A DNA stretch of 32,321 bases from Chloroflexota bacterium. Its GTDB lineage: Bacteria; Chloroflexota; Anaerolineae; Aggregatilineales; Aggregatilineaceae. The stretch covers positions 1 to 32,321 of the forward strand of contig JAADYV010000270.1 in the NCBI GenBank assembly GCA_010092855.1, written 5' to 3'. A program made the position numbers and the translations under genes. Shown here in pieces: positions 1,752-19,369 of this stretch. Numbering within the stretch: the first letter of the stretch is position 1; every line of letters starts with the position of its first letter. Under the pieces are notes generated by a model. The model worked only from the letters and a program-made list of their open reading frames with translations, did no database searches and had not been told where the DNA came from.

Positions 1752-2183
1752 ATGGCCCCGACCGACCGGTTCGTCTCTGAAACTACGTTTCGCGTGCGGT
1801 ATGCTGAAACCGACGCGATGGGCATTGTCCATCATTCCGTCTATATTGTCTACTTTGAAGAAGCGCGCAGCCACTATTCGCGCACTATTGGCGCTGACTA
1901 TGCGGAATTCGAACGCGACGGCTATTACCTGACCGTCGGCGAGGTCCACGCGCGCTACATGGTGCCCACGCGCTATCCCCAGGTGCTGACCGCGCGGTGT
2001 TGGGTCGATGAACTCAAAAGCCGGACGCTGACCTTTGCCTACGAAATCGTCGATGCTGAGACGCAGCAGGTGTGTGTCAGCGGCTATTCGCGGCATGTGT
2101 GCATCACTCACGACGGCCAGGTGTGCAAAATCCCCGACGACTGGGCGAAGCGCTGGAGCCAGGGCGGCCCCGAATCAGGGTAA
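1752..2183 (+). CDS. YbgC-type acyl-CoA thioesterase (hotdog fold)
   Basis: A 143-residue single hotdog-domain protein of the 4-hydroxybenzoyl-CoA thioesterase/YbgC family, which hydrolyses acyl-CoA thioesters in the cytoplasm. The active-site motif reads RYAETDAMGIVHHSVYIVYF (residues 16-35), with catalytic Asp21 in the position typical of this family, followed by FEEAR. The length is standard. The start is fixed by AAGGAG eight bases upstream of ATG. It stands alone on the plus strand between two minus-strand genes, and its last codons overlap the 3' end of the MoeA-PBP gene by nine bases (convergent). The acyl substrate cannot be inferred; YbgC itself works with the Tol-Pal system in proteobacteria, but no tol genes are present here. 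Confidence 0.88.
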   Translation: MAPTDRFVSETTFRVRYAETDAMGIVHHSVYIVYFEEARSHYSRTIGADYAEFERDGYYLTVGEVHARYMVPTRYPQVLTARCWVDELKSRTLTFAYEIVDAETQQVCVSGYSRHVCITHDGQVCKIPDDWAKRWSQGGPESG

Positions 2184-4094
2184 CACTTGCTGGCCCATTG
2201 CCGCCACGTTATAGCCGGGTTGCGCGGCCACCGCTGCCCGGAATTCTTCGTCCGCCAGCAGCGCGAGCACATGCTGGATCATGGGCAGGTCCACGTACTG
2301 CTTCGGAATCACCAGGTCATAGCGCTCGTGCGTGACCGGGATGAAGTCCAGGTGTAGCGCGAGCGCTGCGTTGCGAATTCCCAGTCCGCAATCCGCGCTG
2401 CCAGATGCCACCGCGGCTGCAACGGCGAGATGCGTGTATTCCTCGCGGTCATAGCCGGAGATTGTGCCCGGATCGATGCCGCGCTGCTCCAGTTCATAAT
2501 CGAGCAGCACGCGCGTCCCGGCTCCCCGCTGGCGATTGACGTAACGCACACGAGGCAGGTCATCCAACGATGCGATCCCCAATGGGTTGCCCGGCGCAAC
2601 CATCAGACCCTGTTCGCGATGAGTAAAGGTGACCACGTGCACCGGCAGCTCGCCCAATGTGCGCTGGATATAAGGCAAGTTGTACTCGCCCGTTTCGGGA
2701 TCAAGCAGGTGCGTGCCCGCCAGGTGAGCGTGGTCCCGTTTGAGCGCGACCAGTCCACCCAGGCTGCCCACATTGGCCGACGCCAACCGGTAGCCCGGAA
2801 AACGCACCGCCAGATACTGCCCCAGCAGGTCCAGCATGGGATCGTGGCTGCCGATGGCGACAACGGTGTGCGCGATCTCGTCCTGCGCGCGAAAAAGCTG
2901 GATATCAACCGTGCTTCCGGCGTCCAGCCCTTCGGAAAAGCGTGGAACGTGCAGCAAACCATCGGCGCGCACCAATGACGTGATGACGCCTGCACCGCGC
3001 TTCAGCGGTGTAGCCAGCGTCTGTTCCCCAACCTGGCCTACCGTCACCCGCACGAAGTCATCGTCCCCGGTGGGCGAGACGATTTTGCGCGTCAGGGTAG
3101 CCGCGATGTGTGCGTAGCGCGGGGCGGGTTGGCCCAGCCAGCGAAACAAAATCGGGCGCACGAAAATCTCGCCGGTCAGGGCGGCTGATACCGGGTAGCC
3201 GGGAATGCCGATGATGGGCGTGGCGTTGACCATACCCATGATGACCGGGTGACCGGGCCGCACCGCGACCCCGTGCACCAGCAGTTCCCCGGATTCGCGC
3301 ACGGCGCGTGCCGTGAAATCCCGCGATCCCGCCGATGAGCCGGACAGCACCAGCACCAGGTCATGATCGGCTGTTGCCGCCTGGATCGCGGAACGGATAG
3401 CGTCGGCGTCGTCGGGCAGCATATCCCAGCGCGTGAACTCGCCGCCCGCTTCTCGAATCTGCGCGCCGAGAACGATGCTGTTATATTCGATCACGGTTCC
3501 CGGCGGTGGATCGTCGCTGGGATGCACCAGTTCCGAGCCGGTGGGCAGCAGCGCGACACGCGGACGGCGGCGCACGCTGACCCGGCGGTGCCCGCATCCG
3601 GCCACCGCACCCAGGTCGTGTGGACGCAGGACGTGATTGGCAGGCAGCACGAGTTCGGTTGCTACCATGTCCTCGCCCATCATGCGCACATGCTGCCAGG
3701 GCGCGACCGGCGCGCGGATTTCGATTACGCCGTCGCCGACAGGCTGCGTGTGCTCGATCATGATGATGGCGTTGTATTGTTCGCCAAATGGTGCCCCGGT
3801 GTTGACCGGGAAGGCCTGCTCCGGCACCCGCAGTTGGACCGGGCGCGTTTCGGTCGCTCCCAGCGTAACGGCTGCGCTTACCGCGTACCCATCCATTGCC
3901 GCTGCGTGGAAGTGCGGGGAACTGATCTTGGCCCAGACGGGTTCTGCTATTACCCTACCTAAGGCGTCATCCAGGGCAACCGATTCGCCGGGCAGCGGCT
4001 CCCACTGGCTATGCTGCTCCAATGCGTGTTGCAGCCGCGCCTGCGCTTCGTCCAGCGGGATATCCTCCAGATAAAACTCGCGTTCCTCGGTCAT
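2175..4094 (-). CDS. MoeA fused to a C-terminal PBP-like domain
   Basis: A 639-residue fusion. Residues 1-405 form a MoeA (molybdopterin molybdenumtransferase) unit, which inserts the metal into adenylylated molybdopterin: MDGYAV at 67-72, LPTGSEL at 183-189, SGSSAGSRDFT at 251-261 and IPGYPVSA at 297-304. Residues 412-639 form a periplasmic-binding-like domain of the COG1910 type, with SLGGLVALKRDHAHLAG (444-460), HLLDPETGEYN (462-472) and NRQRGAGTR (520-528). There is no signal peptide, so this domain is cytoplasmic. I chose ATG at 4094 rather than the in-frame GTG at 4118 because it overlaps the upstream moeA stop as TGATG, implying translational coupling. Such two-MoeA pairs are known in archaea and some Gram-positive-type bacteria; the fused domain may sense or deliver molybdate or tungstate, or an anionic ligand, but this is inference. 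Confidence 0.9.
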   Translation of the reverse strand: MTEEREFYLEDIPLDEAQARLQHALEQHSQWEPLPGESVALDDALGRVIAEPVWAKISSPHFHAAAMDGYAVSAAVTLGATETRPVQLRVPEQAFPVNTGAPFGEQYNAIIMIEHTQPVGDGVIEIRAPVAPWQHVRMMGEDMVATELVLPANHVLRPHDLGAVAGCGHRRVSVRRRPRVALLPTGSELVHPSDDPPPGTVIEYNSIVLGAQIREAGGEFTRWDMLPDDADAIRSAIQAATADHDLVLVLSGSSAGSRDFTARAVRESGELLVHGVAVRPGHPVIMGMVNATPIIGIPGYPVSAALTGEIFVRPILFRWLGQPAPRYAHIAATLTRKIVSPTGDDDFVRVTVGQVGEQTLATPLKRGAGVITSLVRADGLLHVPRFSEGLDAGSTVDIQLFRAQDEIAHTVVAIGSHDPMLDLLGQYLAVRFPGYRLASANVGSLGGLVALKRDHAHLAGTHLLDPETGEYNLPYIQRTLGELPVHVVTFTHREQGLMVAPGNPLGIASLDDLPRVRYVNRQRGAGTRVLLDYELEQRGIDPGTISGYDREEYTHLAVAAAVASGSADCGLGIRNAALALHLDFIPVTHERYDLVIPKQYVDLPMIQHVLALLADEEFRAAVAAQPGYNVAAMGQQVLP

Positions 4095-5329
4095 CAGAAC
4101 AACACCACCTCTCCCCACGACCCTTCGTACAGACCGGTCGCGTCCAACGACACCTTGAGCAAACCGGCAGCACCAACCAGCGTAAATATCAAATTGCTTT
4201 TGCCGAATACGGGCTCGGCCCAGGTTTCGCCGTCACGCTCGAACAGGCGCACCGGCACATAATCCTCACGCCCGGCAGCCGACGGCACATTCACCGCCAG
4301 CCGCGCATGAGTGCGCACCTGGAGCGGCACATCGGCCCCCAGCAGGTGTGTGATGGCGGGCACGCCAAACAGCGAATACATCACCAGCGCCGACACGGGA
4401 TTCCCCGGCAGGCCGATCACGGGTTTGCCATCCACCACCGCCAGAATGGTCGGTTTGCCGGGTCTTGCCGCCACGCCATGCACCAATACCCCTGGCGCAC
4501 CCAACCGGTTGATCACGTCCGCCGTCATGTCGCGCGCGCTGACGCTGCTGCCCGCCGTTACCACGAGCATATCCGATGTCTCGAACGCTTCCACGAGTGC
4601 CGCGTACAGGGCTTCCGGCTGGTCCGGGATGATACCGCCCAGGAGTGCCTCCGCTCCCGCCTGGGTACTGAGTGCGTACATCGCGCTGCTGTTGATATCG
4701 CGGATTTGGCCGGGCTGCAAACTCTGAGTGTCGGGGGATACAACTTCATCCCCGGTCGAGAACAGGCTAACGCGCGGTTTGCGGCGGACGGGCAAATCGT
4801 CTGTGATGCCCAACGCCAGCAGCGCCCCGATGTCCTGGGGTTGGAGCCGGTGTCCGGCGGGTACGATCTCAGCTCCCAGCGTCACGTCTTCACCCACTTG
4901 CAGCACATTCTCGCCGGGCGCGACAGGACGCAGCACCTCGATCTCCTCATCGGCAAAGGGCTGGGTGTGCTCGACCATCACCACCGCGTCCGCACCAGGA
5001 GGCAGCATCCCGCCGGTGTGGATCAGGGCAGCTTGTGCGGTCTGAACCTCCACCTGGGAAGCTTGGCCCATCGGTACCTCGCCGACCACGCGCAAATAGG
5101 CGGGCAGCGTATCGGACGCGCCATAGGTGCTGGCGGCCTGCACCGCGTAGCCGTCAACAGTAGAGCGCTGGAAGGCAGGCAGCGCTTCTGGGCTGGTCAC
5201 AGCCTGCGCAATGACCCGGCCCAGTGCCTGCAACGTGGAAATCGCTTCTATTTCCGGGCGGTGGGTGACATGCTCCAGCCACTGGGCACGCGCGTCATCG
5301 GGGGGCAGTACTTGAAAGAATTCTGGCAT
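4094..5329 (-). CDS. moeA: Molybdopterin molybdenumtransferase MoeA
   Basis: A 411-residue protein, the same length as E. coli MoeA, which ligates molybdate (or tungstate) to the dithiolene of molybdopterin using MPT-AMP. Seen motifs are STVDGYAV (56-63, with Asp59 matching a residue needed in E. coli), VEHTQP (119-124), SLFSTGDEVVSP (188-199), AGSSVSARD (259-267) and IGLPGNPVSALV (305-316). The frame stays open 50 codons further upstream, but the start MPEFFQVLPP is favoured because AGGA lies nine bases before that ATG and homologues begin here. It is the first gene of a two-gene unit with the MoeA-PBP fusion, overlapping it by one base. No other cofactor-synthesis or molybdoenzyme gene lies in the window. 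Confidence 0.92.
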   Translation of the reverse strand: MPEFFQVLPPDDARAQWLEHVTHRPEIEAISTLQALGRVIAQAVTSPEALPAFQRSTVDGYAVQAASTYGASDTLPAYLRVVGEVPMGQASQVEVQTAQAALIHTGGMLPPGADAVVMVEHTQPFADEEIEVLRPVAPGENVLQVGEDVTLGAEIVPAGHRLQPQDIGALLALGITDDLPVRRKPRVSLFSTGDEVVSPDTQSLQPGQIRDINSSAMYALSTQAGAEALLGGIIPDQPEALYAALVEAFETSDMLVVTAGSSVSARDMTADVINRLGAPGVLVHGVAARPGKPTILAVVDGKPVIGLPGNPVSALVMYSLFGVPAITHLLGADVPLQVRTHARLAVNVPSAAGREDYVPVRLFERDGETWAEPVFGKSNLIFTLVGAAGLLKVSLDATGLYEGSWGEVVLF

Positions 5330-5352
5330 GTGGTGTTTTCCTGAGGTGCGAA

Positions 5353-5404
5353 AATCTATTGGTAGACCAAGCCTGCTGTCCAGCAGGTTTGCTGAATCAG
5401 CAAA
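5353..5404 (-). promoter_or_regulatory. Putative moeA promoter with two adjacent palindromes
   Basis: On the minus strand TGGACA (bases 5382-5377) and TAGATT (5358-5353) are 18 bases apart, upstream of moeA. A perfect palindrome, CCTGCTGTCCAGCAGG at 5372-5387, covers the -35. A second, TTTGCTGAATCAGCAAA at 5388-5404, lies directly beside it. The centres are about 16-17 bases apart. The position suits binding of a dimeric regulator, but the palindromes could also act as RNA hairpins. Confidence 0.45.
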
Positions 5405-5425
5405 TTCGCTAAACCAGATGGTAAC

Positions 5426-5455
5426 AAAAAACAGCGCTGCTTCAACAACGCCGTT
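5426..5455 (-). terminator. Rho-independent terminator of the TPR gene
   Basis: Read on the minus strand, a 10-bp stem (AACGGCGTTG with CAGCGCTGTT, two G-U pairs) closes a six-base loop and runs into a T tract (complement of A5426-A5431). It lies 43 bases after the stop of the TPR protein and separates it from the moeA pair. Confidence 0.65.
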
Positions 5456-5497
5456 AGCGATCGTAGCCATGTTGGGCAATCGTCGTGTGCAGGAATC

Positions 5498-12533: not shown

Positions 12534-13064
12534 TCAGGCGTTGCGGTGGTGATCGATGAGTTCGATGATTTGCAGCAGCACCTGTCGCACACTCGACTTC
12601 TGGGTTGCCACGCACGGCATCACAGTCACGTCTTCGCCAGGGTTGCTGCGGCGGCGAATCTCGGCCAGGCTGACGGCCCCCGGCAGGTCGGTTTTGTTGG
12701 CGACGACCAGATAGGGTACGTCGTGGAAGTCGGAGAACAGGCGAATCAGGTCGGCGGCTTCGGGAAAGGATGGCGGATCGGTGCTGTCCACCAGGACGAT
12801 AAACCCGTTCATTTCGCGCGCCAGGATTTCCCACATAAAGTCAAACCGTGCCTGTCCTGGCGTGCCGTTGAGGTGCAACACGCGGCCATCCAACTCTACC
12901 CGGCCATAGTCCATTGCCACCGTTGTCTCAGCTTTGATCCCCCGGTCTTCGGTGGTGATCTTGCGCTCCGTCGTGACCACTGCGATGTCGGAGATTGTGC
13001 TGATAAACGCCGTTTTGCCAGAATTGAACGGGCCAGTGACGATAATCTTATACAGATTTGACAC
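12534..13064 (-). CDS. MglA-like small GTPase
   Basis: A 176-residue Ras-like GTPase of the bacterial MglA/COG2229 group. The P loop is GPFNSGKT (11-18), the G3 region is NGTPGQ (66-71, where Ras has DTAGQ), NKTD at 123-126 is the guanine-specificity motif, and ATQKSS near the end takes the G5 place. I placed the start at GTG 13064 because AAGGAGG lies five bases before it and the P loop then begins at a normal distance; an upstream ATG would translate through that ribosome binding site. Such GTPases switch between GDP and GTP with roadblock proteins as GAP or GEF partners and set cell polarity or motility in the studied cases. Two roadblock proteins lie nearby (7005-8135 and 9026-9397). Confidence 0.9.
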   Translation of the reverse strand: MSNLYKIIVTGPFNSGKTAFISTISDIAVVTTERKITTEDRGIKAETTVAMDYGRVELDGRVLHLNGTPGQARFDFMWEILAREMNGFIVLVDSTDPPSFPEAADLIRLFSDFHDVPYLVVANKTDLPGAVSLAEIRRRSNPGEDVTVMPCVATQKSSVRQVLLQIIELIDHHRNA

Positions 13065-13111
13065 AAAACCCTCCTTGAAAGGGGGATACTGCACTTTGCG
13101 TTAACAGCCTT

Positions 13112-13140
13112 ATTGTAGCGCGGATCGCCCTATGAGTCAT
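13112..13140 (-). promoter_or_regulatory. Putative promoter of the GTPase gene
   Basis: On the minus strand ATGACT (13140-13135) and TACAAT (13117-13112) are 17 bases apart. The -35 overlaps the end of the response regulator gene. The start would be near 13105, about 40 bases before the GTG. Confidence 0.4.
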
Positions 13141-13876
13141 CCGCGTGCTTGAAATCAACAAACCGGTAACCCACGCCACGCTCGGTCAAAATGTACTTGG
13201 GATTGGACGGGTCTTCCTCGATTTTCTCACGCAGGTAGTTGACATACAGGCGCACGTAATGGGTTTCATCCCGGTATTCATAGCCCCACACTTTGGCCAG
13301 CAGTTGTTCATGGGGTACTGTCCAACCCGCGTTTTCCACCAGATGATACAGCAGGCGGTATTCGGTTGGTCGCAGCTTGATCGGGGCGCCATCAACGACT
13401 ACCTCGCGGCGATTGAAGTCGACGCGCAACCGATCATCGATACGCAGCACAGCTTGCTCCGGCGATGCGCTTGGCATTTCGGCGCGGCGCATGACCGCGC
13501 GGACTCGGCTCGACAGCTCCCGCGAGCCAAACGGCTTGGTCACATAATCGTCCGCGCCCAACTCTAATCCGTAGACTTTATCGTCTTCTTCGCCTTTGGC
13601 AGTCAGCATGATCACGGGAATGCTGGAAAACTCGCGCAGCATCCGCAGCGTTTCAAACCCGTCCAATTCGGGCATCATCACATCAAGCAGCACCAGGTCT
13701 GGCAGTTGGGTGCGGATCATTTCCAGCGCTTCAAGGCCGTTGTGGGCTTCAAAGACCTGGAAGCCTTCTAGTTCCAGGTTCATGCGGATGAACCCGATCA
13801 TACGCGGTTCATCATCCACCACAAGAATTCGTTTAGCATCGCGCGCAAGACCGCGCGGTGGCTTACCTGACGACAT
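13130..13876 (-). CDS. OmpR/PhoB-type response regulator
   Basis: A 248-residue two-domain DNA-binding response regulator. The receiver (about 15-130) has the acidic pair in VVDDEP, phospho-acceptor Asp65 in [11 protein letters not shown], Thr92 and Lys114 (YVTKPF), all intact. A winged-helix output domain (about 150-245) has the family hallmarks [37 protein letters not shown] and RGVGYRF. The start at ATG 13876 is preferred to one 11 codons upstream because GGAG lies ten bases before it. No histidine kinase gene is adjacent, so its partner is unknown; the Ser/Thr kinase operon upstream is a speculative input. The GTPase gene follows after 65 bases with its own possible promoter. Confidence 0.92.
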
Positions 13877-14022: not shown

Positions 14023-14262
14023 TTAGTCCTTGTAGAAGGCCACGATCTCTTCCTCCTCACCGGAAGGCATGATCTCGATGAAACTGATACGCCACCAGGG
14101 CATGATAATTGTGTGCACTTCGGGCAGTACATAATGCACATCTTTTCCGTCACGACGACGTGGATTGATCAAGAAAACTGCGGTGTCAGTGGATTCGGGC
14201 AACGTTTCCACTTCGGCCAGAATGGGCTCTTCGTTGGTTACGTGGACGAGTAGGGTTTGCAT
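14023..14262 (-). CDS. Small conserved-looking protein, function unknown
   Basis: A 79-residue protein starting MQTLLVHVTNEEPILAEVET. It looks mainly beta-stranded (FLINPRRRDGKDVHYVLPEV, TIIMPWWRISFIEIMPSG), with an acidic tail (EEEEIVAFYKD). It has no cysteines or membrane segment. It lies 17 bases after the FHA gene on the same strand, and GGAG is found upstream of the ATG, so it is probably the last gene of the kinase operon. I recognise no family; an accessory role in that signalling module is a guess from position. Confidence 0.65.
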   Translation of the reverse strand: MQTLLVHVTNEEPILAEVETLPESTDTAVFLINPRRRDGKDVHYVLPEVHTIIMPWWRISFIEIMPSGEEEEIVAFYKD

Positions 14263-14279
14263 AAGCGTGATGGTCTCCG

Positions 14280-14777
14280 CTATTCAAAGTAAATGTGAAA
14301 CACAAGCTTGCCGATCCGCACTTCGTCGCCGTCGCGCAGCACACGTGGCTGGTACGGGATCAAACGCTGGCCGTTGAGGTGCGTACCATTAGTGCTTCCC
14401 AGGTCGACCAGAGTGAGGGTATCTTCGCCGCGCCGGATGCTGGCATGTTGGCGCGAAACGCCGTTTTCGGCAGCCCCATAGGGGCCCATATCCAGGTCGG
14501 GAAATGTCTGAGACTTGGTATCGGAACGCCCGAGCAGCACTTCTTCCTGAGCAGCGAGGCGGATTGGCTCGTCAAAATCGCGCACACGGATCACAATCGA
14601 TTGGGACCTGAAATGGGCCGTGCCCCAGGTCAGGCGCTTGGCCAACTCAGCCTGGTTTGTATCAACCAGGCGGTTGGTAGCCAGGGCGTCCTGGTCTCCA
14701 AAAAACGGGTGGCCACATTCTTCACAGAAAAACATACCTTCCCGATTGTTGTGTGTGCAATTGGGACACTCTCTCAT
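14280..14777 (-). CDS. Zinc-ribbon and FHA domain protein
   Basis: A 165-residue phosphothreonine reader. The N-terminus has a zinc ribbon with Cys4, Cys7, Cys18 and Cys21 (CPNC and CEEC). The FHA domain fills about residues 60-163 and has the residues that bind phosphothreonine: GRS at 83-85, SRQH at 108-111 and DLGSTNGTHLNG at 125-136. The linker between them is short and polar. Its ATG overlaps the end of the DnaJ-VWA gene by four bases and has a GGGAG five bases upstream. In this operon the probable ligand is a phosphorylated threonine made by the kinase at 17360-19273, perhaps on the kinase itself or on the DnaJ-VWA protein. Confidence 0.9.
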   Translation of the reverse strand: MRECPNCTHNNREGMFFCEECGHPFFGDQDALATNRLVDTNQAELAKRLTWGTAHFRSQSIVIRVRDFDEPIRLAAQEEVLLGRSDTKSQTFPDLDMGPYGAAENGVSRQHASIRRGEDTLTLVDLGSTNGTHLNGQRLIPYQPRVLRDGDEVRIGKLVFHIYFE

Positions 14778-16264
14778 TGGTCTCCCTCGCCGCTTGGTTT
14801 TGGCAAGGCCAACAGCATACGGGTGCCAAACTTGAGCGTCTTGCGACCCTCTTCCGAAAGCATATTCGTTTTGGAAACACGCCGGGCTTCCATTGCCGCA
14901 CGCTGAGCCAGGTCTTCCTGGCCAACGGCCAGCAAACGAGTGGCCAGGTTTTCCAGGCGGCGCGTGGCCTCGACGATATTCCCCTGGGCGACTGACTGTT
15001 CGGCTTTTTGCTGCATCCGGTACAAGGTGAGTTTGCCCAGCGCATCCAAAATGGCCAGGGGAGGTTCCTCCGGGGCAGGATTGCGTGCGATTTCCACCGA
15101 AATATCGCTCAGTACCTTGTAGCCCTCGCGTTCGGCCATCAGCACATCGCCGGTGACATCCAGCCGGGCAACGGTACGGAAACCGGTTTTGGAACTCGGC
15201 GGCATCTGCAACTGGATCAGCGCTGAGACCGGGCGACCAAACTCCAGGCTGCCAAGCGGGATCGGCTGGGGGCTAACATCGGCAGGCTGGGGCGTAGGTG
15301 ACAGCTTGAAGACCGATTCCAGTTCGACATCGGCATCGGGGGCGATAGTAAGCTGGAGCCGCTCGGTGAACGATGCGCCCAGGCTGCGCACCCGCTCGTT
15401 AAGGAAGCGCACGACCGAGGACGGCGAGTTGATGTAGGCTGAATAGCCCCCGGTCCTTGACGCCAGCGCATCGAGGAAATCATCGTTCCACTCTTCGCCA
15501 ATGCCCATTGCGCTGATGCCGATGCCAAGTTCGGACGCATCTTCCGCCAGCATCAGGCACTGGTTTTCGTCGCCAAATGTGCGGCCATCGGTCAGCAGAA
15601 TCACATGGTTAACATACTTGGAATTGAGATACCGTTCGGCCTCTTTCATCCCGGCAGCTAACCCGTGGAAAATCTCGGTGCCGCCCCCTGCCCGCATCAT
15701 GGAGATGATCGAGCGCAACGATTGCTTGTCCTGGATGGGTTCAGCGGGAATCATGACGTCCGCTCGATCACTAAAGCTGATCACGGACAACACATCGCCT
15801 GCGGCCATTTGATCGATGATCTGGTGTGCAGCGATCTTCACTTTTTCCAGACGAATACCGCGCATTGAGTTACTGCGATCCAACACCAGGGTCAGGTTCA
15901 TACGGGTGTCGGGCCGGTCATTTACTGAGGCCTGAGTCGCGGGGATCACTTCGAGCAGCAAATAGACGACTTGTGGTTCTTCCAACGTAGTCAAGACGCG
16001 CTTGCTGGGAGTCACACGCAGCGAATAAAAATTCGGCTCGTCGGCGAAGTCACGGCGAGCCAGATCGTACTCAGCCCGGTTGATAGGGTCACCCAACAAC
16101 TCGTAAGCAGCCGCAATATCCCGAAACTGTAAATCAGCGCCTTCATTCCCGTTGGCGTCTGGGTGAAAGCGCCGGGCGGCGATGCGGTAGGCTTCTCGAA
16201 TGTCTTGCTGAGTCGCCTCGGGCGGAATCCCTAAAATGGCATACAGGTTACGCGATGGATCCAT
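14774..16264 (-). CDS. J-domain and von Willebrand A domain fusion protein
   Basis: A 496-residue soluble fusion. Residues 5-70 form a J domain (NLYAILGIPPEATQQDIREA, with the HPD motif at 34-36, then YELLGDPINRAEYD), which stimulates Hsp70 ATPase. Residues about 122-300 form a VWA domain with an intact metal-ion-dependent adhesion site: Asp129-Ser131-Ser133 in DRSNS, Thr196 in GGGTEI and Asp226 in LLTDGR. Residues 300-420 look beta-rich, as in VWA proteins with an added beta-sandwich, and 425-496 are helical. There is no signal peptide or membrane helix, so it acts in the cytoplasm. It lies between the PP2C and FHA genes. VWA proteins near kinases and phosphatases are known from TerY-type modules, but a J-domain fusion in that place is unusual to me. 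Confidence 0.88.
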   Translation of the reverse strand: MDPSRNLYAILGIPPEATQQDIREAYRIAARRFHPDANGNEGADLQFRDIAAAYELLGDPINRAEYDLARRDFADEPNFYSLRVTPSKRVLTTLEEPQVVYLLLEVIPATQASVNDRPDTRMNLTLVLDRSNSMRGIRLEKVKIAAHQIIDQMAAGDVLSVISFSDRADVMIPAEPIQDKQSLRSIISMMRAGGGTEIFHGLAAGMKEAERYLNSKYVNHVILLTDGRTFGDENQCLMLAEDASELGIGISAMGIGEEWNDDFLDALASRTGGYSAYINSPSSVVRFLNERVRSLGASFTERLQLTIAPDADVELESVFKLSPTPQPADVSPQPIPLGSLEFGRPVSALIQLQMPPSSKTGFRTVARLDVTGDVLMAEREGYKVLSDISVEIARNPAPEEPPLAILDALGKLTLYRMQQKAEQSVAQGNIVEATRRLENLATRLLAVGQEDLAQRAAMEARRVSKTNMLSEEGRKTLKFGTRMLLALPKPSGEGDQ

Positions 16265-16294
16265 GAGTATGTGCCGCCGTTTTTTGGTGTGCCA

Positions 16295-17341
16295 TTAACC
16301 AGGAACGTGAATGAGAACAACCGTAATGTTATCCGATCCGCCACGTTCATTAGCCAGTTTGACAAGCTGATTACAGGTTTCTTGTGGATCATTGTAACGA
16401 TTAATCATCTCGGAAATGGTATCTTCAGACACCAGATTCCACAAACCATCACTGCACAACAGCAGCCGGGCGCGAGGGGACAACCGGCGTGTAATTGCGT
16501 CTACGTCCAGGCTGTCGTTTTGCCCAATGGCGCGATAGAGCACGTTCCGCTGGGGATGTTGAATCGCTTCTTCGTGTGTCAATTGATCCAGCTCGATCAA
16601 GCGTTGGACCAGCGAATGGTCGCGCGTGATTTGCTCAATACCTTCGTCGCTGATCATGTATGCCCGGCTGTCGCCGACGTGCGCAATATATGCCAGGTCG
16701 CCCAGGATGACGGCGGCGGTAACGGTTGTGCCCCCTTCGGGAATCGCGTCGGTAACAGCATCGTTAGCTTTTTGAATCGCCATGCGCAGCACTTCGGCAA
16801 TCGAGGGGCGGTCGGGATCGTTCATTTGGTCCTGAAGTACGGACATATAGATTTCGGAGATGATGAATTGCGCCACCATGCGAGTCGTCAAGGCGGACGC
16901 TTTCTCGCCATCGTGGTGGCCACCCATGCCGTCGGCCACAACAAACAGGCCAAAATCGGGCAGGTCATCGCTGCTCGTTCCCGAAGAAACGATGCTCAAC
17001 ATGGCGTCCTGGTTGTTACCGCGCACCATGCCTACATCGCTAAGTTGGCCAAAGACCACGCGCTGTCCAGGTTTAGGCATAATCGTTTCCAGTGGCGGCA
17101 AAGGCCGGGTACCAGCCAGTACTGCCTGGTCAAAATTTGAGGCTACAACCGGTGTGTCATGGGCTGAGGACCGGACGGCTTCTTCTGGCGGGGTATCTTT
17201 AACCTCGTCTGTAGGGGAGTCGATCACCGGCTCGGGTTGCGCAACTGGCTGCACCTCATCATGTGTGATTGTGATCTCGTCTTCGGTTGATGCTGCACTG
17301 GAGTTGCTTGACAGGCCCAGTACACGACGCAAGAAATCCAT
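16295..17341 (-). CDS. PP2C-type Ser/Thr protein phosphatase
   Basis: A 348-residue PPM/PP2C phosphatase that removes phosphate from Ser/Thr residues using two metal ions. After an N-terminal acidic, disordered stretch of about 90 residues, the catalytic domain starts at FGQLSDVGMVRGNNQDA (Asp112). The other metal motifs are present: VVADGMGGH (Asp137), HVGDSRAY (220-227), CSDGLW (Asp297) and GGSDNITVV (Asp337). No membrane helix is visible; MDFLRRVLGL at the start could bind a membrane or a partner. It lies 18 bases after the kinase gene and 30 before the DnaJ-VWA gene, so it most likely reverses phosphorylation by that kinase. Confidence 0.93.
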   Translation of the reverse strand: MDFLRRVLGLSSNSSAASTEDEITITHDEVQPVAQPEPVIDSPTDEVKDTPPEEAVRSSAHDTPVVASNFDQAVLAGTRPLPPLETIMPKPGQRVVFGQLSDVGMVRGNNQDAMLSIVSSGTSSDDLPDFGLFVVADGMGGHHDGEKASALTTRMVAQFIISEIYMSVLQDQMNDPDRPSIAEVLRMAIQKANDAVTDAIPEGGTTVTAAVILGDLAYIAHVGDSRAYMISDEGIEQITRDHSLVQRLIELDQLTHEEAIQHPQRNVLYRAIGQNDSLDVDAITRRLSPRARLLLCSDGLWNLVSEDTISEMINRYNDPQETCNQLVKLANERGGSDNITVVLIHVPG

Positions 17342-17359
17342 AACCTTGTCTCCGGCAGA

Positions 17360-19273
17360 TTATGCCTTGAGTGCGTAAACGTAATGATCCATAGAGCCAA
17401 TATACACTACATCATCGTGTACAATTGGCGAGGCGGGAATGGCACCTCCGGTCTCAAAACTCCAGCGCAATTGCCCTTTCTTGGCGTCTACGCTGTAGAC
17501 CTTGTGGTCGATGCCACCAAAATAGACCACGCCATCAACGTAGGCCGGTGACGAGGTAATCTGGCTTTCGGTGTCGTATTTCCACCGTTCTTTGCCGCTG
17601 GAAACGTCAATCGCGTACAGGCTGCCATCGACAGAGCCGACAAACACCTTGTCGTCGCCCACAGCCGGGGAGGAGATGATCGGTTTGTTGGTGCGATAGG
17701 CCCATATCTTCCAACCGCGGGTGATGTCCAAGGCATAGATATGCCAGTCCAGCGAGCCAAAAAACACCCGGCCATCATATTCTATGGGAGAGGACGACAC
17801 CGCACGTTTGGCTTTGAAGCGCCACACGGGTTGCCCCGACAAGTCCAACCCAACCACTTCACCGGACTCCAGCCCGACGATGATCAATTCTCCGGTGACG
17901 AGGGGGCGCGACCGGATCGCGGCTCCACCGGGCCAATCCCACTGCACGCGCCCAGTTGAGAGGCGCACTGCATACAACCGACCGTCGTCGCTGCCGAAGA
18001 AGGCGTGTCCGTGAGCAATAGTGGCCGACGACTGAACCGGGCCACCCGTCTGGACCGACCACGCCAAATCCCAGGTGCGCATATCTAGCGCGTACATCTG
18101 GCTATCCAACGACCCAAACAGGATCAGGTTTTCGGCAGGCACGATGGCTGGGGTGGACACGATCCCTTCGCCAACAGGGTATTTGCTACGGAATGAGCCA
18201 TCAGCCGCATTTAGCGCATAAAGATTGTGGTCAAACGCGCCAATATACAACACATTTTGATGCACTGCTGGCGAGGACCGGATCTCGTCCTCGCATTGGA
18301 AGCGCCACAGTGGTTCGATACCTTCGCCGATTGCGCCCCATTCAGACATTTCATCTGCGGAGTCAGCATCGGTGTGAATAGCCCCACTGAACGCAGCGGG
18401 TTTGGCCAGCGCTTCTAGGTTTTCTTTCATCACCGTGGCGTTCGGATAGCGTTCACCGGGTTCGAATGCCAGCGCTTTCATGATGATCGCTTCGAACTCT
18501 GGTGAAACAGCCGAGTTTGCATCGCGGATGGGACGTTCGGCAAACGTAAAAGGCGGCTCCAAACGCGGATCGCGGCGGGTGAGAAGATGATGCATCGTCG
18601 CGCCGATTCCGTACACATCGCTGGACGGGCTGGCCTCACCTTTGTACTGCTCTGGCGCGCTGTAGCCTTCGGTCCCAATCATGGTGCCTTTTTGGCCCTG
18701 CTGGAAGATTTTGGCGATGCCAAAGTCGACCAGGCGCAGCCGCCCATGCTGGTCGATCATGATGTTCGATGGCTTGACGTCGCGGAAGATAACGGGAACG
18801 GGTTCCTGGGCGTGCAGGTAGCCCAGCACATCGCACAACTCGATGGTCCATTCCAGGACTGTCTCGACGGGCAGGAACTCGGTCATCGAATTGAGAATCG
18901 CCTCAAGATCGCGACCATTGATATATTCCATGACAACATAGGCGCGCGTTTTGCTGGGGAAGTAGTCGTAGATTTCTGGTACCGCTGGATGGCTGAGCGA
19001 AGCCAACATATCCGACTCGCGCTCAAACGTGCGTAGTGTCATCTCGCGCATGGCCTGGTCGGTGTTGGTCAGGTTCAGCATTTCTTTGACTGCGACGAGG
19101 CGCGTTACATTCGGAAAGTGCAAGTCCCGCGCCTGGTAAACAGACCCCATGCCACCCACACCAATCACACCAGTGATTCGGTACCGGCCCTGGAGCACGG
19201 AGCCGGGTTGCAGCGCCCCTTCTCCAGCGGGTTGTTCAGGTATATTCCTGGCAAACTGCGTTGTATCAACCAT
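17360..19273 (-). CDS. Ser/Thr protein kinase with C-terminal eight-blade propeller
   Basis: A 637-residue Hanks-type kinase. The kinase domain spans about 30-290: glycine loop GVGGMGSVY, Lys63 in VAVKEM, FRDVKPSN at 163-170 with catalytic Asp165, DFG at 183-185 and APE at 207-209. Phe replaces the usual His of HRD. From about 320 to the end there are eight repeats of about 40 residues with the pattern SSPxxxxxxVYxGSxDxxxYAxD, a PQQ-like beta-propeller. No transmembrane helix separates the two parts, so the whole protein appears cytoplasmic, unlike PknB-type receptors. I chose the ATG at 19273 rather than the preceding TTG. It heads the operon, behind a strong promoter at 19341-19369. The propeller could bind a ligand or a protein partner. 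Confidence 0.92.
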   Translation of the reverse strand: MVDTTQFARNIPEQPAGEGALQPGSVLQGRYRITGVIGVGGMGSVYQARDLHFPNVTRLVAVKEMLNLTNTDQAMREMTLRTFERESDMLASLSHPAVPEIYDYFPSKTRAYVVMEYINGRDLEAILNSMTEFLPVETVLEWTIELCDVLGYLHAQEPVPVIFRDVKPSNIMIDQHGRLRLVDFGIAKIFQQGQKGTMIGTEGYSAPEQYKGEASPSSDVYGIGATMHHLLTRRDPRLEPPFTFAERPIRDANSAVSPEFEAIIMKALAFEPGERYPNATVMKENLEALAKPAAFSGAIHTDADSADEMSEWGAIGEGIEPLWRFQCEDEIRSSPAVHQNVLYIGAFDHNLYALNAADGSFRSKYPVGEGIVSTPAIVPAENLILFGSLDSQMYALDMRTWDLAWSVQTGGPVQSSATIAHGHAFFGSDDGRLYAVRLSTGRVQWDWPGGAAIRSRPLVTGELIIVGLESGEVVGLDLSGQPVWRFKAKRAVSSSPIEYDGRVFFGSLDWHIYALDITRGWKIWAYRTNKPIISSPAVGDDKVFVGSVDGSLYAIDVSSGKERWKYDTESQITSSPAYVDGVVYFGGIDHKVYSVDAKKGQLRWSFETGGAIPASPIVHDDVVYIGSMDHYVYALKA

Positions 19274-19340
19274 CAAGCCTAACCTTTAAGCTAATCCAAA
19301 TCCGGCAAACGTAAGGTGGATGGCAAACTACTTTGAGGCT

Positions 19341-19369
19341 ATTATAGTGTTCCAGTAAGGTTCTCGCAA
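19341..19369 (-). promoter_or_regulatory. Strong sigma-70 promoter of the kinase operon
   Basis: On the minus strand TTGCGA (19369-19364) and a perfect TATAAT (19346-19341) are 17 bases apart. Transcription should start near 19334, about 60 bases before the kinase ATG. The region is shared with the divergent hemW gene. Confidence 0.75.

Follow-up and report, generated by a model that had tools for sequence, protein, structure and literature searches.

What is encoded by five closely packed genes of a Chloroflexota bacterium that bring together a protein kinase, a phosphatase and a phosphothreonine-binding protein, and with which known signaling system should they be compared? The genes lie on the minus strand between positions 14023 and 19273 of contig JAADYV010000270.1 (assembly GCA_010092855.1), of which positions 1 to 32,321, the whole stretch of DNA that was analyzed, are referred to as the window. 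They run head to tail and encode a serine/threonine kinase with a C-terminal PQQ-type beta-propeller (PROP; 17360..19273), a PP2C phosphatase (16295..17341), a protein that combines a J domain with a VWA domain (14774..16264), a zinc ribbon-FHA protein (14280..14777) and a conserved 79-amino-acid protein, here called SML (14023..14262). The gaps between consecutive genes, from the kinase to SML, are 18, 30, -4 (an ATGA overlap) and 17 nucleotides. A first-pass annotation made from the sequence alone had described these genes as a phospho-signaling module with gaps of 30 nucleotides or less, or overlaps; this layout was confirmed, and the catalytic, metal-binding and phosphopeptide-binding residues were found to be intact. 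Taken together, our data indicate that the five-gene set is probably a bacterial counterpart of the ArnA-ArnB phospho-switch of archaea that carries its own kinase and phosphatase.

The VWA protein is homologous to ArnB across the VWA domain, the beta-sandwich and the helix bundle. The protein encoded in the window (Pfam DnaJ 1.7e-19, VWA 6.1e-19) consists of a J domain (residues 6-67) and a split beta-sandwich, a VWA domain and a C-terminal helix bundle, the last three being the three-domain architecture of ArnB. In a phmmer search, residues 124-439 matched chain A of PDB entry 8S05 (3e-12), a "Conserved protein" that is ArnB in the ArnA-ArnB complex of Sulfolobus acidocaldarius (PMC12852372). 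A profile built from ten VWA family members matched ArnB of 8S05 with an E value of 4.2e-25 over positions 50-419 of 425. The AlphaFold model of the J-VWA protein had a predicted local distance difference test (pLDDT) score of 91.3, and its best PDB matches by Foldseek were 4FX5, which is an uncharacterized actinobacterial VWA protein, 8S05 (3.5e-26) and the ArnB paralog 5A8J (3e-22), followed by inter-alpha-inhibitor and Sec23/24. The metal site of the VWA domain, which had been called intact, indeed retains D129, S131, S133, T196 and D226, and these residues are invariant in 25 aligned VWA proteins.

As judged by sequence profiles, the FHA protein (Pfam FHA 8.8e-18) is homologous to ArnA across both the zinc ribbon and the FHA domain. 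Its family profile matched ArnA in 5A8I (3.9e-15) and in chain C of 8S05 (6e-15), the latter in a single stretch across ribbon and FHA. The layout of an ArnA-like partner, a zinc ribbon followed by an FHA domain with intact phosphothreonine-binding residues, is present in the window: the zinc cysteines 4, 7, 18 and 21 and the FHA residues G83, R84, S108, R109, H111, N130 and T132 are all retained, and the four cysteines and the phosphothreonine-site residues are invariant in 22 relatives. A weak match to the NCBIfam model VI_FHA (7.3e-9) was also recorded. Because the domain architecture, the sequence profiles and, for the VWA protein, the fold agree, the VWA and FHA proteins are equated with ArnB and ArnA. 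FraH is a zinc ribbon-FHA protein of cyanobacteria; the accessible Fra/heterocyst literature gave nothing usable on this point, and FraH supports no claim made here.

The kinase and the phosphatase are both catalytically intact as far as their conserved residues indicate. The kinase (Pfam Pkinase 2.5e-39, plus propeller families) is of the Hanks type with FRD in place of HRD, and its open reading frame may begin at the TTG at 19276. It retains K63, E86, RD164-165, N170 and DFG183-185 (domain numbering), which are conserved across 40 sequences. No hydrophobic stretch was seen by eye between the kinase and propeller domains. In terms of overall layout, the protein resembles the AfsK-type kinases, which have a PQQ-like propeller C-terminal to the kinase domain, but its match to the NCBIfam AfsK model (2.4e-65, 221.7 bits) falls far short of the equivalog cut-off, which is 1300. 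The phosphatase (Pfam PP2C 2.2e-17) matches the NCBIfam Stp1 PP2C model above the model cut-off (7.9e-70), and its metal residues D42, D203 and D242 (domain numbering) are intact and at least 95% conserved.

A phosphorylatable threonine is present in the C-terminal bundle or tail of the VWA protein, as in ArnB, and the candidate phosphosite and FHA dock is Thr481 (codon 14822..14824, minus strand; tail motif KTLKFGTRML). T481 and R482 are invariant in 25 aligned Chloroflexota VWA proteins within the motif K-x-I/L-K-Y-G-T-R-x-L. Of 109 Chloroflexota VWA proteins, 103 had the pattern [YFL]xT[RK] within their 75 C-terminal residues, compared to a mean of 15 and a maximum of 26 for shuffled tails, an excess that is inflated by relatedness. 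In the profile alignment, T481 falls without gaps on residue 373 of the ArnB chain of 8S05. When the chain numbering was calibrated using LIETT (340-344), SIETT (350-354) and T322/T335 of PMC12852372, the chain number was two higher in this region, and the aligned residue is therefore ArnB T371. The T371-T375 cluster of ArnB is phosphorylated late and is partly buried against the VWA domain (PMC12852372).

In Sulfolobus, ArnC phosphorylates the C-terminal bundle of ArnB and PP2A reverses this modification; the zinc finger of ArnA provides the loose contact before phosphorylation and the FHA domain the tight one after it, and the ArnA-ArnB pair represses the archaellum (PMC6509490, PMC12852372). 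The set in the window has in common with the Sulfolobus acidocaldarius system (8S05, 5A8I, 5A8J) a VWA/split beta-sandwich/bundle protein, a zinc ribbon-FHA partner, a Hanks kinase and a threonine in the C-terminal region. We infer that the same switch operates here because the kinase, the phosphatase and the ArnB-like and ArnA-like proteins are co-encoded and their catalytic and phosphothreonine-binding residues are conserved. The kinase, probably modulated by a ligand or partner that binds its propeller, would phosphorylate the VWA protein in its C-terminal tail, with T481 as the first choice of site. The FHA domain would bind the resulting phosphothreonine, so that a loose contact mediated by the zinc ribbon becomes a tight complex, and PP2C would undo the tail phosphorylation. 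The complex may in turn alter the action of the VWA metal site, of the Sm-like SML and, in Anaerolineae-like genomes, of the adjacent response regulator, which is the best local candidate for the output. In the lineage that bears the J domain, the scaffold could also pass a bound partner to DnaK.

The set also differs from the ArnA-ArnB system in that one operon encodes both the kinase and the phosphatase, the kinase carries a propeller, the VWA protein has a J domain at its N terminus, a small Sm-like protein is added, as is a response regulator in many loci, and there is no archaellum. Several points weigh against a direct equation of the two. The phosphatase is a PP2C instead of the PP2A of the ArnA-ArnB network, so that the set is a variant and not a strict member of the arn network. 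The fold match of the VWA protein comes in part from the common VWA core, and 4FX5 scores as well as ArnB. Since ArnB depends on no single threonine (PMC12852372), T481 may be only one of several sites. The cyanobacterial VWA tails carry a different motif, RKTVKMGAKGKTVK, and the exact tail site is therefore not universal, while in Binatota neither form of the tail was matched by the regular expressions used. Finally, the most likely output, altered gene expression or an altered stress state, is guesswork.

To what extent is the gene set conserved? When 400 Chloroflexota genomes were searched at the protein level, 130 of them had a relative of the VWA protein, and 40 related loci were retrieved for comparison of gene order. 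In 35 of these, the order kinase-propeller, PP2C, VWA protein with or without the J domain, FHA protein and small protein was found on one strand, an association of five genes that is far beyond chance. Of the exceptions, one locus is cut by a contig end (L037), one is without PP2C (L056), and three others differ (L067, L068 and L070). Conservation of gene order had been named beforehand as the test by which the proposed module could be refuted, and it was not refuted. This result supports a conserved phospho-signaling module. A literature search, for which most subscription papers were out of reach, found no paper on a bacterial ArnA-ArnB operon or on a DnaJ-VWA protein.

The first-pass annotation had also placed the J domain at the center of the mechanism, with phosphorylation controlling the recruitment of Hsp70. 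This part did not hold. The HPD motif (residues 34-36) is intact in the window, but a J domain was present in only 40 of the 138 VWA proteins examined, all 40 from Chloroflexota; none of the relatives examined from outside Chloroflexota had it, nor did Chloroflexales, and one further locus (L059) has lost it. Among the 40 J-bearing proteins, four have no HPD (L038, L055, L058 and L159), while the rest stays. On a 65-row tree, made by a quick method and with long branches, the J state requires three changes, and most carriers belong to one clade that includes the window. Because of this tree pattern, the absences and the HPD losses, the J domain is best regarded as an old, vertically kept accessory and not as part of the core, and phospho-controlled Hsp70 recruitment would therefore be at most a lineage-specific extension. 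It is thus unlikely that Hsp70 targeting is the main job, with the VWA and FHA proteins assembled around a client that the J domain delivers to DnaK for folding or disassembly: the other 36 J-bearing proteins keep both HPD and the J-domain core residues, and the J clade is old and mostly of single origin, but relatives in Chloroflexales and outside Chloroflexota have the same switch with no J domain. Hsp70 recruitment through the J domain is in itself plausible. A tentative and rather doubtful extension of the ArnAB-type switch is that, in the Anaerolineae-like lineage, it was rewired as a phosphorylation-gated chaperone adaptor in which the VWA and FHA proteins present a bound regulator to DnaK, such as the response regulator encoded downstream or an Sm-like partner that binds RNA. 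We know of no bacterial description of phosphorylation-gated Hsp70 control of this type. The J-domain fusion offers a clean natural comparison of systems with and without the domain.

The response regulator just mentioned is of the OmpR/PhoB type (13130..13876, minus strand, with the start set at the ATG at 13876; Pfam Response_reg 8.4e-32, Trans_reg_C 7.2e-25). Its closest NCBIfam models are RpaB, YycF and MtrA, and the phospho-acceptor D76 is conserved. The gene is next after SML in 22 of the 40 loci, several with gaps of a few nucleotides, and its product, 65-79% identical among relatives, is a probable sixth member of the set; all of the five genes first proposed were present, but the unit had been cut short. 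The gap to SML is 146 nucleotides in the window, so co-transcription is unsure here. These features could also mean that the system is centered on control of the regulator by the kinase, with the VWA and FHA proteins as a feedback scaffold and Ser/Thr phosphorylation or sequestration of the regulator as the output. We consider this distinctly unlikely, as Chloroflexales-like loci retain the other genes without having the regulator beside them, and its strong conservation may merely reflect an essential regulator next door. It is highly improbable that the genes form a TerY-P-type or other anti-phage or stress triad of VWA, PP2C and kinase. The same three enzyme and domain classes are encoded together in both, TerY-P-like modules include antiphage systems (PMC11090510), and the kinase matches the PD-T4-6 models of PADLOC. 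However, TerY-P as described has a TerY-like VWA protein, a zinc ribbon fused to the kinase and no FHA protein (PMC11090510), whereas the VWA protein here is of the ArnB type with sandwich and bundle, and the ribbon is on the separate FHA protein. TerY-P was rejected on the gene neighborhood and on this architecture, there being no TerY-like stand-alone VWA protein and the kinase being fused to a propeller and not to a zinc ribbon or OB-fold. An anti-phage system was rejected because none of the VWA, FHA and small proteins matched a PADLOC model and the kinase matches are generic; the layout, conserved across many families, is also not that of a mobile island. The PpkA/PppA/Fha set of type VI secretion is alike in its kinase, PP2C and FHA logic, but was rejected for the ArnB-type VWA protein found here and the lack of secretion genes. 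Among the window neighbors tested by Pfam, no tellurite (ter), secretion, restriction or defense genes were seen, in agreement with what had been noted earlier for ter and secretion genes. Of the known relatives named earlier, neither TerY-P nor type VI secretion is the closest; ArnA-ArnB is closer by phmmer, profile and fold matches, and its published mechanism gives the FHA-VWA step a specific form.

A third published relative is an actinobacterial theme linked to GAP1-N2 GTPases, which is alike in its adjoining kinase, PP2C and standalone vWA genes (PMC7159879). A separate theme in the same paper has a DnaJ-fused FNIII protein, so that the DnaJ fusion is to FNIII repeats there and to a VWA domain here, and no ArnA-like FHA protein is described (PMC7159879). 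In a 2026 structure paper, the sole non-archaeal prokaryotic structural relatives given are an actinobacterial VWA structure and E. coli YfbK, and an FHA partner is unmentioned (PMC12852372). ArnAB, TerY-P and the GAP1-N2-linked theme are the published relatives of the set.

Other phyla were sampled through a single scan of GTDB contigs ranked by a cyanobacterial query, and 80 loci were annotated. VWA, FHA, PP2C and kinase genes were clustered, in differing orders, in Cyanobacteria, Armatimonadota, Fischerbacteria, KSB1 and Binatota, and Latescibacterota had the set at least in part; judged by gene content, the general VWA-FHA-PP2C-kinase module is widespread. In this sample, the clusters outside Chloroflexota were without the J domain, propeller or small protein, and versions with these were found only in Chloroflexota. 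To our knowledge, ArnA-ArnB has been studied only in Sulfolobales. The VWA, zinc ribbon-FHA, kinase and phosphatase genes are co-encoded in Chloroflexota and several other phyla, and their carriers include bacteria that have been cultured (Herpetosiphon, Chloroflexus and Nostocales cyanobacteria); the downstream role of ArnAB is therefore open to attack in tractable bacteria that encode kinase, phosphatase and substrate together. Six clusters of Herpetosiphon and its relatives (L096-L098, L101, L102 and L121) each have three ArnB-like VWA genes with differing tails and a PP2C gene, a paralog set that would be useful for specificity tests. A plasmid search gave mostly lone VWA proteins in other contexts (Deinococcus, Picosynechococcus, Synechocystis), with the exception of a VWA-FHA-PP2C operon on plasmid B of Trichormus variabilis (L080:4995-9038). 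The tail of this VWA protein has repeated RKTVKMG/GKTVKIG motifs, and the PP2C of this operon carries a long N-terminal extension that, by eye, resembles a kinase.

SML is without a Pfam or NCBIfam match and is present as a single copy in 131 of the 400 Chloroflexota genomes. It is predicted to form an Sm/SH3-like small beta-barrel of five strands with a disordered acidic tail (AlphaFold pLDDT 88.6). The top 50 Foldseek matches were all of the Sm/Lsm type, with template modeling scores of about 0.5-0.6 and a best E value of only 0.013; SML itself gave no sequence match. The gene follows the propeller at a contig start in L173, where VWA and FHA genes are missing beside it, and an FHA gene in L169, L171 and L172. 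In three loci of Chloroflexota family f57 (L162, L163 and L170), it lies directly after the kinase-propeller gene as a minimal pair, with PP2C, VWA and FHA genes not found nearby. These positions and the predicted fold suggest that SML may be a partner of the kinase or the FHA protein, possibly as a nucleic-acid or protein adaptor.

A promoter-like site lies upstream of the kinase gene (19341..19369, minus strand; TTGCGA-17-TATAAT, 10/12). The single strong promoter proposed earlier was not established, since 4 such sites were observed in the region versus 4.6 expected from shuffles. A small Ras-like GTPase is encoded at 12534..13094 on the minus strand (Pfam Ras 7.9e-10); its membership is uncertain, and it adjoins the cluster in just one of the 40 loci (L037). 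In Sulfolobus, SaGPN, a GTPase of another family, co-purifies with ArnA/ArnB (PMC12852372), which may be a coincidence. In the neighbors that were tested, Pfam either gave no match or identified housekeeping, polysaccharide or regulatory domains; among these neighbors are CTP synthase, adenosine deaminase, a HemN/HemW-like radical SAM protein, MoeA pairs and genes for polysaccharides. At positions 2175-5479 of the window, two MoeA-type genes are arranged in tandem, one of which has a PBP-like domain.

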